64,000 bases of DNA from Natronorubrum aibiense (GCF_009392895.1 NZ_CP045488.1:1550001-1614000); one strand, 5' to 3'; counted from the stretch's first letter, positions 58,768-64,000 are shown. The notes: generated from the sequence alone by a model not told the origin. Translations and numbers: made by a program.

Positions 58768-59943
58768 TCAGAGTTTCTTCCAGACGTCTTCGTCGTCGTC
58801 GAACCCACCCTCGTCGGGATCGCCGAACTCGTCTCTCCCTTCGAGCTCTAACTCGTCGGGCGAAAACGTCGGTTCTTCGTCGGCCGGCCGGGACTGTTTC
58901 TGGAGGTTCAGCTCCGGCCACGCGGTCTCCTCCCAGAGCCCGCGCTCGCTGTAGTAGTAGACGACGTCGTCGCCGACGACGGCGAACAGCCCGCGCTGGC
59001 GGTCGTGGACGACGCGTTTGTTCGTGTCAATCGCGACGTCGACGACGTCCTCGAGTGTATCGAGCGAGATGTGGTAGTCGCCGACCCACATCGGAATCGA
59101 GCCACGCGAGATCCACTCGGCGTAGCGCTGTTCGTGGACCGCACGCCGAGCGGCCTCCTCGTCGACCGGGGCTCGCCGCGCGACGAACGCGGCCCCCACG
59201 AGTGCGAACGTCCCCAGCAGTGAGAGCCCGGCGATCGTTCCGAGACTCCGCGATTCGGTGGTCTGTTGGGTGCCCGTCTGATAGGTATGGCTCTCTGACA
59301 CCGACAGCGACTCAGCCAGCCAGTAGGCGTCGTCGGTCACCTGAAACGCCGTCGACGCCTGCTGTGTGCCCTGACTTCTCCCGGTGTCGTACTCGACACG
59401 GAACGCCAACTCGAGGTCGACCGAGCCGACGCCCGAGAGTTCTCGCTCGAGTTGGCGCTGGCGGTCGCGGTAGGAGTCGACGTCGATCGTCGCCGTCGAC
59501 GTTGCGACGCCGTCCTCGACGGGTGGCGATTCGTCGATGACGGTGTGGGTCTCGTTCCAGAACGACTCGCCGTCTCTGGTCGCGTCGAACCGAAGGATCA
59601 GTTCGTGGTGGACGTCGGCGTCGTCGATCGCCCCCTCGGTCTCGTCTCGCAGGCTGGTCTCGGGCTCGAGGGTGAGCTCCGGCGTGGCGTTGCGCACGTA
59701 GACGCCGCTGTTCTCGAGGCGGTCGCCCTCGCTCCAGAGTTCGCCGTCCCGCACGACGACGGCACTCGTCCCGACGTTGCTTTCGACGTGTTCGTCGCCG
59801 TACTGCGTGGTCGTCTCCGTCGTCGGATTCGCAACGGCCCAGCCCGTCGCGCCGAGTGCAAGCGCACCGACGACGATCAGTGCAATCGTGATTAGGCGAC
59901 CGTACTGGGCGAGTACTAACTCGAGTCGTGGATTATCGATCAC
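58768..59943 (-). CDS. DUF5305-like membrane protein of the surface-protein cluster
   Basis: 391 residues from the GTG at 59943 (VIDNPRLELVLAQYGRLITI). An in-frame ATG at 60045 would add 34 residues. One helix near 15-38, a beta-rich extracellular domain to about 235 (VYVRNATPELTLEPETSL, GVATSTATIDVDSY), a second helix near 240-262, then a cytoplasmic domain with RAVHEQRYAEWISRGSIP and VVHDRQRGLFAVVGDDVVYYYSE-like strands, and an acidic tail. It ends the minus-strand cluster that includes the signal peptidase, so it may help assemble or anchor the secreted proteins. Confidence 0.8.
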   Translation of the reverse strand: MIDNPRLELVLAQYGRLITIALIVVGALALGATGWAVANPTTETTTQYGDEHVESNVGTSAVVVRDGELWSEGDRLENSGVYVRNATPELTLEPETSLRDETEGAIDDADVHHELILRFDATRDGESFWNETHTVIDESPPVEDGVATSTATIDVDSYRDRQRQLERELSGVGSVDLELAFRVEYDTGRSQGTQQASTAFQVTDDAYWLAESLSVSESHTYQTGTQQTTESRSLGTIAGLSLLGTFALVGAAFVARRAPVDEEAARRAVHEQRYAEWISRGSIPMWVGDYHISLDTLEDVVDVAIDTNKRVVHDRQRGLFAVVGDDVVYYYSERGLWEETAWPELNLQKQSRPADEEPTFSPDELELEGRDEFGDPDEGGFDDDEDVWKKL

Positions 59944-60098
59944 TGTTCGGATACCCCCGTCGACCGGCCCCACCGGTTTGCTCCCCTCCCTAATCCGTAT
60001 CCGACCTGTTACAACGGATCGGAGAGCGGACTCACATGCGTACATTCACTTTTTGCAACCATTATAACGATGTCGGCCACCTCTGCCCGAGCAGGCGG

Positions 60099-61268
60099 TC
60101 AGAGCCACTTCCGAAGCTTTCGCTCGAGTCGAGTCGACAGCGGAACGTGTGTGCCGGCGGAGCGAAGGCGCAAATCACCGCGGCCGAACACGACGAGGAC
60201 GATTACGACGGCAACCCCGACGATGACTCCGTTGACGGCGGCGATCGCGACGAGGGGATGAAGCCCGTGGAGCCAGACTAAAAGCGCCGGCGGCAACACA
60301 GCGAGATAGCGGTACTCGCCGACATGGCGGGTGTACTGGCCGGTCGTCTCAGGTGCCGTCAGCGAGACCGTCGTCTCTCCGCTCGAGCGAATCCCGACCG
60401 TCTGCCAGGGTGGGTCCGTCTCGACGTTGTTACTTCTGGCTTCGTGGACGACGACGATTGGGAGGTAGCCCGCGTTATCGATCGTCCGTGTGAGTTCGCC
60501 CGTCTCACCGGGGGCGAGGATCTGTGGATTATCCTCGGGCGTTTCGGTACTCACGACTTCGTACTCGGTGGTACCCGACGGCACGACCATCGCTGCGGTC
60601 GCGAACGTCACGAACACGAGCAAGACCAGCCCGAGCGTCGTCCAGAACGCGAGCACGTTCTCCCGAGAGCGCGAGCGCCGCTTCTCGCGTCGTGCAGGCC
60701 CGATTCGCTCGAGGAGCACGCCGAACCCGAGCAGGGCGATGCCGACGGCGACCAGCAGCGAGCCGGTCCCCTCCGAGTCGGGCGACGTTGTCAGCCCGAG
60801 AATCGGGCCGATCGTCCCGACAGCTGCTGCTGCAGTGTTCTGAACACCCATGATGGCCGTCCCAAGGTGTGGGATCGTGACGACCTCGCCGTTTACCTGC
60901 CATGCTTTGGCAACGATCTGGCCGTCCGTGACGTGGGGTTCGCCGCCGTCTTGGTCGGTAAACGGGTTGGCGTCGCCTTTCGTGATGTATCCTTCACTGG
61001 TCTCGCCGACGACGCGATGAGTTGTCAGCCCGCCGCCGTGAAGCTCTCGCGCGTCGAAGACGACCACATCACCGTCCGCGACCGACCCCGAAACGGCGGT
61101 CGGGATCGCGACGAAGCCGTCGCCGGCGTTCATCGTCGGCTCCATACTGCCCGTCGCGACGTACCCGAGCAGGATCGGCTGTCCCAGTAGCTGGCCGACC
61201 AGCAACAACACGATGGCAAGTGCGACGACGACACCGAACACTCGCTTGAGGAGCGTCGTTGACGTCAT
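60099..61268 (-). CDS. Signal peptidase I, archaeal/ER (SipW-like) type with large C-terminal extension
   Basis: 389 residues. N-terminal helix, then nucleophile S41 in VATGSMEPT, H84 in LTTHRVV (His instead of the bacterial Lys) and D99 in TKGDAN: the Ser-His-Asp type. After about residue 150 the protein continues with a helix, a basic stretch (RREKRRSRSR), another helix, an immunoglobulin-like beta domain (about 225-320) and two final helices. Ordinary archaeal signal peptidases end near 200-300, so the extension suggests a dedicated partner protein. It is placed between the CARDB-type and DUF5305-like genes. Confidence 0.88.
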   Translation of the reverse strand: MTSTTLLKRVFGVVVALAIVLLLVGQLLGQPILLGYVATGSMEPTMNAGDGFVAIPTAVSGSVADGDVVVFDARELHGGGLTTHRVVGETSEGYITKGDANPFTDQDGGEPHVTDGQIVAKAWQVNGEVVTIPHLGTAIMGVQNTAAAAVGTIGPILGLTTSPDSEGTGSLLVAVGIALLGFGVLLERIGPARREKRRSRSRENVLAFWTTLGLVLLVFVTFATAAMVVPSGTTEYEVVSTETPEDNPQILAPGETGELTRTIDNAGYLPIVVVHEARSNNVETDPPWQTVGIRSSGETTVSLTAPETTGQYTRHVGEYRYLAVLPPALLVWLHGLHPLVAIAAVNGVIVGVAVVIVLVVFGRGDLRLRSAGTHVPLSTRLERKLRKWL

Positions 61269-61371
61269 TGGCTCGTCCTACGGACGTTCATGGAAACCTG
61301 ATTGTTCAACTATACTGATATTCGGAGTCGATCATCTTAAACACCTTGTGAGGTGTCTCAAGTCGCCACGC

Positions 61372-62502
61372 TTACCTCGAGACGAGCGCCCACCGGCGGT
61401 TCGCCGCGGCTGCCAAGAACAGGAACCCGGCAGTCATCGGTGGGGCGAGCGCTGCCGTCGTCGCCGCCGAGAGTTCGCGGTTCTGAAGCGTGAACGGCTC
61501 TGGTTCCTCGACCGTAATCGAGCCCGCCTTGACGCCACTGACCGCGATCGCGTACGTGCCGGGCTCGGTGAACTGCCGGTCGAACGTCACCATCCGCTCC
61601 GAGTTCGGCTCGAGCGTCACCGTTCGCGTATCGACGACGATGCCGTCGACGGCGAGCTCGAGGGTGCGATCGACTCGCCTCTCCGTGGGGTTCCTCACCG
61701 TCGCCTCGACCGTCGTCGTCTCGCCCACCGTGAGTTCGCTGTCGGCAACCGAGGCGTCGAGCACGTCGATCGGCGGCCCCTCGGCGGTGACCGATTCGGT
61801 CCGCCCGTCGACGCCGATCTCGTACGTGCCGGGCCACTGTAGCTCCCGTTCGAAGACCACCGAGGTCGTCTCGCCGGGGCCGATCTCGAATGTTTTCGTG
61901 TCGACGGTGATGCCATCGACGGTCAACGTGGCCGTCCGCTGTCTCGTCATGGCCCCGTCGTTCCGGTAGGTCGCGTTCACCGTCACGGTATCGCCCGTCC
62001 CGACGGTCGTCCGATCGAGTTCGACGGCCTCGAGTTCGACATCGGTCGGCTCGTCATCCTCCTCGTCGTCCTCGTACCGGACGTGGATCGTGAACGTCTC
62101 GGTGCCGCTTTCGGCGAGGTGCGTATCGATCGCTACGCCGATGCTCGTCGTCTGTCCGGCCGTTGGCTCGAGTGGGTTCGACGCCGAGACGGTCGCCGAA
62201 CGGTCGCCGTCCGCGTAGAACTCGAGGCCGTCAACCTCATTTTCGATCCAGATTCGCTCGACGGCGTCGTCGTTGACTGCAATCGTGAAGACCCCATCCG
62301 CGCGTGTGATCGCACGGTCGTTGAGTTTCTCGAGGTCGAGTCGGAGGTCGCCGTCTTCGATTGTGGAGTAGGAGGAGGTTGGCTCGAGGACGACGTCGTC
62401 GGCTGTCGTGTCTTCACCCACCGTGATTGCTACTGTTGGGACTGCCAACGCGAAGAGAAAGCAGGCTGCGGCGGCAGTGAGGAGGATCTTGGTGGATGGC
62501 AT
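61372..62502 (-). CDS. Secreted, membrane-anchored protein with CARDB-like domains
   Basis: 376 residues. Signal peptide (1-26, ILLTAAAACFLFALAVPTVA), an N-terminal domain (about 30-140) of DUF1102 style, then two CARDB/Ig-like repeats (about 150-240 and 245-335), each with TVGTGDTVTVNATYRNDG / TVGETTTVEATVRNPTERR opening and an RELQWPGTYEIGVDG / RQFTEPGTYAIAVSG ending. A C-terminal hydrophobic helix precedes WALVSR. It is probably an envelope protein cleaved by the adjacent signal peptidase and displayed outside the cell. Confidence 0.82.
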   Translation of the reverse strand: MPSTKILLTAAAACFLFALAVPTVAITVGEDTTADDVVLEPTSSYSTIEDGDLRLDLEKLNDRAITRADGVFTIAVNDDAVERIWIENEVDGLEFYADGDRSATVSASNPLEPTAGQTTSIGVAIDTHLAESGTETFTIHVRYEDDEEDDEPTDVELEAVELDRTTVGTGDTVTVNATYRNDGAMTRQRTATLTVDGITVDTKTFEIGPGETTSVVFERELQWPGTYEIGVDGRTESVTAEGPPIDVLDASVADSELTVGETTTVEATVRNPTERRVDRTLELAVDGIVVDTRTVTLEPNSERMVTFDRQFTEPGTYAIAVSGVKAGSITVEEPEPFTLQNRELSAATTAALAPPMTAGFLFLAAAANRRWALVSR

Positions 62503-62579
62503 TCAGAATTTCTTTTTCGACGAACAGCGTCATTAATCACTTATTATTGTCTGTTCAAGAGAAGGTTCGATAAGTTCGT

Positions 62580-63131
62580 TTATTGTCCCGATGGAACCGC
62601 TTCGATAGTGATTTCTCCTGGAATATCGTCTTCTGTTGGATTATTTACGCCAGTGAATTCAAACACAACATTGAATGTTTCACTGGCCTCTGGTGAGAGT
62701 GTGAGGATATTTCCAGTAAGGGTGTTGTCAGTGTCCACAAAGTTCATTCCAGACCCCTCGGCAATACTATTACTGTTGACAAGAAGATCATTTTCATTTG
62801 CATCCTGAATCGTGATGTCAATGTCGCCGATATCGGGATCACCGGTATCGGGACTTGGGTCATTGTTGGTAATCGTGAGAGCTTCAGAAAATGTGGTCAC
62901 TGCGTCAATGTTAATATCAGCGTCAAGATCAAATTGGATAACATTCTCGGTCCCACCGGCAAGATCACCACTGACGTCTAATCCAAGGAGTGCCGCGCCG
63001 TCACCCTCGGTACTGATGTTCACTGTCCGATCCGCACTCACGCTGCTAAACGCACCAGTGCCCAGTGCAGCTCCGCCGCCCGCGACGATCGTTCCCAGTC
63101 CAACTAACACATTGCGTCGGTTCATGCTCAT
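62580..63131 (-). CDS. DUF1102-like secreted protein (candidate fibre subunit)
   Basis: 183 residues from MSMNRRNVLVGLGTIVAGGG. Twin-arginine-like NRRN plus a hydrophobic stretch and GTGAFSSVSADRTVNI make a secretion signal; the cut is expected near GTGA/FSS or SA/DR. The mature beta-rich domain has EGDGAALLGLDVSGDLAGGT and the ending IPGEITIEAVP. The GTGAFS-SxSADR start resembles TasA/camelysin and DUF1102 proteins, which SipW-type peptidases process into biofilm fibres. The gene is clearly poorer in GC than its neighbours. A longer start (63146) is possible. Confidence 0.8.
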   Translation of the reverse strand: MSMNRRNVLVGLGTIVAGGGAALGTGAFSSVSADRTVNISTEGDGAALLGLDVSGDLAGGTENVIQFDLDADINIDAVTTFSEALTITNNDPSPDTGDPDIGDIDITIQDANENDLLVNSNSIAEGSGMNFVDTDNTLTGNILTLSPEASETFNVVFEFTGVNNPTEDDIPGEITIEAVPSGQ

Positions 63132-63611
63132 GATTGTAGTCTCCATGTAACCACGCCGCGACCCTCGCCGCTGGGTCCGGAACGCGGTTCTTGCTCCTCC
63201 CTTGGAATCCCACCCACTTTGTATTGAGTACCGAGACACTGTTCAAGCTTGATAATACCCGTTGCAGCAACACCGCAATCACCTTCAAGACCGGCCTGAA
63301 CGGCCGAAATCGGCCGTCTCGAGTATTTGGACTGCTGTCAGGTCACATACTCTCGAGCGACACGACATCTCGAAACACCCGCAGCTGTCGTACGCCTATT
63401 GCGTCCGGGGCAATCGGCGACACTTGAGACAGATGATCGACTCCGATGGCGTCCCATAGTGAGTCGAGGCCAACCGATATATGATCTTTTGTGACAGTAC
63501 AGTGTACTTATATATGCCCGTCTCGTAGCTATTATACGGATACAGATGTCCGAGACGGGAAATTGAGCCAGTTCGCAACATCTGGGATTATCACACATAC
63601 AGTACTCCAAC
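63132..63611. promoter_or_regulatory. Divergent intergenic region of the surface cluster
   Basis: 480 bp without a supported gene, more AT-rich than the genes around. TATA-like ACTTATATATGC at about 63506 could serve the rightward gene, with a leader of about 75 nt. A second AT-rich box GCTATTATACGG at 63528 is an alternative. On the leftward side AT-rich sequence near 63218-63226 could serve the DUF1102-like gene. A hairpin with arms GGCCG/CGGCC occurs around 63300-63315. Confidence 0.5.
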
Positions 63612-64000
63612 ATGACACGTCCTTTCACAGGTATTGCGATCGTGTTCATCCTCCTCGGCGTAGCGGTTATGGCCGGGCCGACGTTCGGCTTCGACACGAT
63701 CGCCGCCGATCGTGGTGTGAGCGTCGCGACGGCCGACGACTCGAGTGCCTATCTCGGCCTCGAGGACCGTTCGGGATCGGCGGCGATCGACTCGCCCGCG
63801 GATTCAACGGTCGTCTACACCGTGACCGACAACTTCGGCGGGGCTGATCCGGCTACCGTCGACACATCGGTCGTTCGGATCACCGACGACAACAATGACC
63901 CGGTCACGTCGACGGCGCTTTCGGCGACAGTCCAGCCCGGCAGCGAGGCCAATACGTTCGACGTCCAGCTTGCATGTGACGATGCAACGTCGCTCGAGGG
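63612..64000 (+). CDS. DUF1102-like secreted protein, N-terminal part
   Basis: ATG at 63612; the frame is open to the window edge (129 codons seen). Signal peptide MTRPFTGIAIVFILLGVAVM ending near GPTFGFDTIAADRG. The mature part opens ADRGVSVATADDSSAYLGLE, matching the ADRTVNISTEGDGAALLGLD block of the minus-strand DUF1102-like protein: ADR, a strand, two acidic residues, and LGL. The following beta-rich repeat with VVYTVTDNFGGADPATVDTS is CARDB-like. It is divergently transcribed from the signal-peptidase cluster and is probably a second substrate. Confidence 0.82.
   Translation, partial: MTRPFTGIAIVFILLGVAVMAGPTFGFDTIAADRGVSVATADDSSAYLGLEDRSGSAAIDSPADSTVVYTVTDNFGGADPATVDTSVVRITDDNNDPVTSTALSATVQPGSEANTFDVQLACDDATSLE

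Follow-up and report, generated by a model that had tools for sequence, protein, structure and literature searches.

We analysed a 64,000-nucleotide stretch of the Natronorubrum aibiense genome (GCF_009392895.1, NZ_CP045488.1:1550001-1614000), hereafter the window, whose last part (58768-64000) carries five genes in a divergent arrangement, where an earlier note made from the sequence alone had placed a five-gene surface-fibre cluster. Positions are counted from the first letter of the window.

58768..60045, minus strand: gene A, DUF5305 protein (PF17231, 163 bits)
60099..61268, minus strand: gene B, extended S26 signal peptidase (TIGR02228, 58 bits; full-length conservation in 14 orthologues)
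61146-61148, 61017-61019 and 60972-60974, minus strand: catalytic residues S41, H84 and D99 of B (invariant columns, 14 orthologues)
60099..60836, minus strand: C-terminal extension of B (hydrophobic spans at residues 166-191, 203-234 and 324-368)
61372..62502, minus strand: gene C, CARDB protein, TafF counterpart (CARDB 46.4 bits; hhalign to TafF and to D)
62580..63146, minus strand: gene D, fimbrial subunit of the TafE clade (TafE 81.6 bits; 9P0A pilin; tree; model)
63051..63125, minus strand: D signal peptide MNRRNVLVGLGTIVAGGGAALGTGA, twin-arginine type (RR in 38/38 motif-bearing D-type genes)
62979..63050, minus strand: D mature N-terminus FSSVSADRTVNISTEGDGAALLGL, proposed donor strand (F1, A6 and R8 invariant in A1)
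63147..63611, no strand: divergent intergenic region between D and E, with conserved block AATACAAAGTGGGTGG inside (nine-species alignment)
63612..64000, plus strand: gene E, TafC-like, 5' part within the window (TafC 29.6 bits; bactofilin 31.7 bits; orthologue model)

The window end cuts gene E, leaving 129 of its 277 codons inside; the gene runs on to 64445. Downstream of it, past the window end at 64575-65117 (L003:8575-9117), lies a DUF7344 HTH gene, which is a further member of the cluster and a likely candidate for the regulator of the fibre genes. This gene adjoins E here and at many other loci, TafA-bearing ones included. An alignment of nine species shows block AATACAAAGTGGGTGG, upstream of D at 63210-63225 on the minus strand, to be mostly conserved between flanks that are not; it is possibly a regulatory element. 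Close to the genes of such loci there is often a gene for a large DUF7289 protein, 800-1100 residues long and type IV pilin-like at its N-terminus (L003:9330-11753, L117:9978-12683, L041:4957-8079, L046:4884-7517, L118:10808-13879 and L040:13953-17288), and one copy carries a VWA domain.

The readings of A, B and C as a two-span DUF5305-like protein, a signal peptidase with a long extension and a CARDB-type protein were borne out. The product of B exceeds the cut-off of the archaeal S26 family TIGR02228 (51.85 bits), and its S41, H84 and D99 are the Ser-His-Asp residues of an archaeal type I signal peptidase. It is conserved along its whole length in the 14 orthologues, including the extension of about 240 residues, in which the spans 203-234 and 324-368 enclose an outer domain of some 95 residues. 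The closest named orthologues all belong to Natronorubrum, a genus of the family Natrialbaceae (N. sulfidifaciens, 94%; N. bangense, 91%; N. thiooxidans, 91%). Direct membership in the SipW family, by contrast, was rejected at the profile level, the resemblance being weak (36.2 bits against a cut-off of 190). We regard B as a candidate for the enzyme that processes D and E. Other genomes of the family hold a separate set of loci (L059-L078) with a more divergent clade of the peptidase, 43-49% identical to B, together with DUF5305 and in many cases a pair of adjacent D-like genes.

The A protein scores 163.1 bits with PF17231 (gathering score 29), and its two membrane spans (residues 41-73 and 267-290) flank an outer domain and leave the C-terminus in the cytoplasm; it may be an assembly or anchoring factor. 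Comparison with a 392-aa relative in L039 indicates that its true start is probably the GTG at 59943. The Natronorubrum genome also contains a lone DUF5305 gene (L128:5644-6951, on G000:C2), with no recognised peptidase or subunit adjoining it, and a third, short DUF5305 piece with a 109-aa frame (G000:C3:255769-256047), both of which are possible remnants of lost fibre loci.

Gene C encodes two CARDB stretches, a D-like N-terminal domain and a hydrophobic C-terminal tail, which is weak. A direct search with the TafF model did not reach gene C of the window; hhalign relates C to TafF at 97.3% (E 2e-11) and to D at 96.4% (E 1.1e-9, 101 columns), so that C shares the body of D. The donor motif described below is absent from it. 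The DUF1102 family (PF06510), to which the earlier note assigned D and E, was discarded for both, with no match at E<=1; the sole weak match is to the N-terminal domain of C (15.6 bits, cut-off 22.2).

Of 20 loci sampled across the family for the closer clade of B, 19 retain the order D-C-B-A; the exception is L052, which lacks C. Among 125 Natrialbaceae genomes, D is present in 108, DUF5305 in 114 and B in 114, and every genome with D also carries the other two, as the fibre proposal anticipated. Fisher tests give p ~7e-12 for D with B and likewise for D with DUF5305, values that overstate independence, the species being related. Together, the retained order and this co-occurrence exclude chance as the origin of the cluster.

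Gene D starts with ATG at 63146 or at 63125 and encodes a twin-arginine-type signal (MNRRNVLVGLG), which points to export via Tat. In NCBIfam searches its product falls below the cut-offs, with 81.6 bits for TafE (cut-off 155), 50.6 for TafA (cut-off 190) and 25 for TafC. The sole convincing PDB match is chain C of 9P0A, named 'Pilin' (E 3.6e-15); a profile built only from the mature chains of D-type proteins recovers this sequence too, at E 1.2e-14. This entry, released 2025-07-23, is entitled 'Structure of Natrinema sp. J7-2 Tafi pilus'. Its pilin is identical over 214/214 residues to a gene of genome G054 that takes the place of D, ahead of the orthologues of C, B and A; thus, the D-position gene of this operon type encodes the subunit of a solved fibre. 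The J7-2 pilin itself reaches only 77.3 bits with TafE, which shows that the Taf cut-offs mark close relatives rather than the entire family. The structure has 188 modelled residues of 215, the last being residue 215, and we infer that the mature chain begins at F28 after cleavage at GTGA/FSSVEADR, which fits the modelled count. D and the J7-2 pilin agree in operon position, clade, signal, mature N-terminal motif and the absence of TafA; they differ in the mature body, where identity over 118 structurally aligned residues is low (23%).

The predicted monomer of D (pLDDT 73.5, a middling confidence) has an all-beta body preceded by 18 residues modelled mostly at low confidence; the position of the motif and this predicted disorder agree with a free N-terminus acting as a donor strand. 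Foldseek returned no matches to the model at E<=0.001, and AbpA bundling pili of Pyrobaculum calidifontis (7UEG, Z 7.8 over 116 residues) and 9P0A (Z 7.2) ranked top only after re-alignment, at Z values of 7-8, close to those of unrelated sandwiches. AbpA is 10% identical to D and comes from a different archaeal phylum, and TasA was not among the structural matches listed for D. In substance, the idea of a surface fibre of the TasA/AbpA type survives through the matches of D to 7UEG and 9P0A. Descent of D from type IV pili was rejected because its solved relative is a beta-sandwich fibre.

Gene E encodes a Sec-type signal, a donor-like segment, FDTIAADRGV, from 63690, an Ig-like body and a beta-solenoid. 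Its resemblance to the TafC N-terminus is 29.6 bits (cut-off 410), and the part beyond the window end is a bactofilin-like solenoid (31.7 bits, cut-off 27.9). Its fold was taken from the predicted model of the N. sulfidifaciens orthologue, whose N-terminal domain matches Ig-like, cadherin-like and PapD-like sandwiches and whose solenoid matches pectate lyases (Foldseek, VIA-align); Taf pili, AbpA and TasA are not among the structural matches listed for E, in itself a weak piece of evidence. The ADR...LGL block that the earlier note saw directly after both signal peptides is indeed common to D and E, in the form F-x-x-V/I-x-A-D-R...LGL; it lies inside the mature chain, at the place of the donor strand in TasA. 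Outside this N-terminal strand segment (44 columns, E 1.9e-7) the two proteins are not alike. Given this limited likeness and the Ig-like body and solenoid of E, the two do not form a pair of like shaft subunits, as the earlier note would have it.

The motif F-x(2-4)-A-x-R is found in 38/42 D-type and 36/44 E-type proteins, in 1/34 C proteins, where the single entry is a gene fragment, and in 9/396 neighbouring genes. A twin-arginine pair accompanies it in all 38 motif-bearing D-type genes but in only 5 of the 36 E-type ones, so D and E are probably exported by different routes. The heads of E differ as well, being a beta-solenoid here and Laminin_G_3 in other families. Three E-like proteins (L090:3417-4037, L091:1626-3272 and L092:2468-3847) have very different C-terminal parts, among them GGGNNGVGN repeats and long beta-solenoids, and comparison of these sequences suggests that the head domains are exchanged fast.

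How such a fibre might assemble can be proposed by analogy with TasA and AbpA, in which case donor-strand exchange would operate in the cluster as well. The TasA/TapA/SipW system of Bacillus subtilis resembles the cluster in outline, with a dedicated S26 peptidase beside secreted subunits and, in the TasA precursor, the order A-F-x-x-I/V where the peptidase cuts and the N-terminal strand begins. Each TasA subunit lodges this strand, which includes F29 and I32, in its neighbour (PMC9674648). Unlike that system, the cluster has a Tat-type signal on D and a large extension on B, which scores under the SipW cut-off.

For the pairing of peptidase and substrates, the assignment of tip and base, and regulation, we infer the following sequence of events. 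D would leave the cell by the Tat pathway, and B would cleave its signal at GTGA/F, freeing the N-terminal strand FSSVSADRTV... to complete the beta-sandwich of the next subunit, as TasA does. E, with the same donor segment, a different body and a beta-solenoid head, would start the chain as the tip protein. C, the proposed basal acceptor and anchor, would take the strand of the last D and hold the fibre at the cell through its D-like domain, CARDB repeats and hydrophobic tail. A would aid assembly or anchoring, and the DUF7344 gene product would regulate. Because the motif occurs in D and E and not in C, although C has the body of D, E and D would be the donors and C the acceptor; the tip position of E is favoured by the variability of its heads. 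We put the order of E at the tip, D in the shaft and C at the base at a little under even odds.

TapA offers a precedent for the opposite polarity, in which E would sit at the base and supply the initial donor strand there, on the side of the cell, with C capping or linking the other end or the S-layer. TapA too resembles TasA in N-terminal donor residues only and initiates fibre growth (PMC9674648), and E likewise has just the donor segment in common with D. No second membrane span was found in E, however. The hydrophobic tail lies at the end of C, and the TafF relatives retain a D-like domain and a tail with membrane-like segments; variable heads, lectin-like ones included, also suit a tip. 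A basal E is the less likely placement, if still a serious contender.

The fibre system itself is not unreported, as the earlier note had assumed. Galeva et al. (2025, iScience 28:111793), as cited in PMC12687288, described Tat-fimbriae of haloarchaea as thin Tat-exported filaments with TafA as core component. The cluster has the content of a Tat-fimbria (tafi) locus: a TafE-type D with a Tat-type signal, a TafC-like E and a TafF-like C, surrounded by the extended S26 peptidase, DUF5305 and the DUF7344 HTH gene. In another haloarchaeal family, Haloarcula-type loci combine curated TafA, TafC, TafE and TafF with the same extended peptidase, DUF5305 and DUF7344. Compared with Tat-fimbriae, the cluster has no TafA and scores under the NCBIfam cut-offs; its C has a CARDB stalk where TafF has a Gly/Thr-rich linker, its E head is a beta-solenoid where TafC has Laminin_G_3, and its peptidase, C and A genes all lie on the strand of D. 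Our main reading, to which we give a probability of roughly 80%, is that the cluster is a tafi locus of a TafA-less type with D as the shaft.

Apart from D itself, a search of the Natronorubrum genome found no gene of the TafA type. The same holds for G054, and only about 8 of 125 Natrialbaceae genomes have a separate, roughly full-length one. A tree of 26 sequences separates a well-supported TafA group from one that unites the TafE proteins with D and the 9P0A pilin. Since TafA is absent and D and 9P0A belong to the clade named for the TafE 'adapter', the TafE-clade protein seems to be the shaft in such loci. The solved pilus establishes this for Natrinema J7-2; by operon position and clade, D is likely to be the shaft in Natronorubrum too. 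The sister species G108 has a TafA-like gene (112.8 bits) between D and C, which means that TafA was gained or lost within the genus.

The NCBIfam name itself would make D, as a member of the TafE clade, a minor adapter only, with the shaft formed by another protein encoded elsewhere in the genome, and G054 does have additional D-like genes outside the operon. We consider this improbable: in G054 it is the TafE-clade protein that makes up the solved pilus, and the Natronorubrum genome, besides lacking TafA, has a single D-like gene other than E. That the products are separate surface or S-layer-associated proteins forming no fibre is more improbable still: Natrinema J7-2 builds a pilus from the D counterpart encoded at this point of the operon, and haloarchaea are reported to have Tat-fimbriae (Galeva et al. 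2025, as cited in PMC12687288).

With D as a TafA-less shaft, a more general 'tafi code' may be put forward tentatively, somewhat less firmly than the assembly order itself: proteins with F-x-x-V-x-A-x-R would donate (E at the tip, D in the shaft) and the motif-less C would accept at the membrane, heads would be exchangeable (beta-solenoid, lectin-like), and TafE would be the shaft wherever TafA is missing, as is usual in Natrialbaceae. The placement of D and 9P0A as TafE-clade shafts and the TafA-less majority go beyond the published names that we found.

Although the tafi system is already known, the window holds a TafA-less member of a real and conserved fibre system. Such loci seem to be widespread among haloarchaea: DUF5305 is present in 277/341 sampled Halobacteria genomes, a TafA match at E<=1e-15 in only 33. 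If the TafA-less form is the usual one, calling TafE an 'adapter' misnames what is the shaft protein in many species. The pattern in which the donor motif occurs provides a directly testable assembly order for a fibre whose locus has no recognised ATPase or usher, and it is relevant to the question of how TasA-like fibres came to be common to archaea and bacteria.
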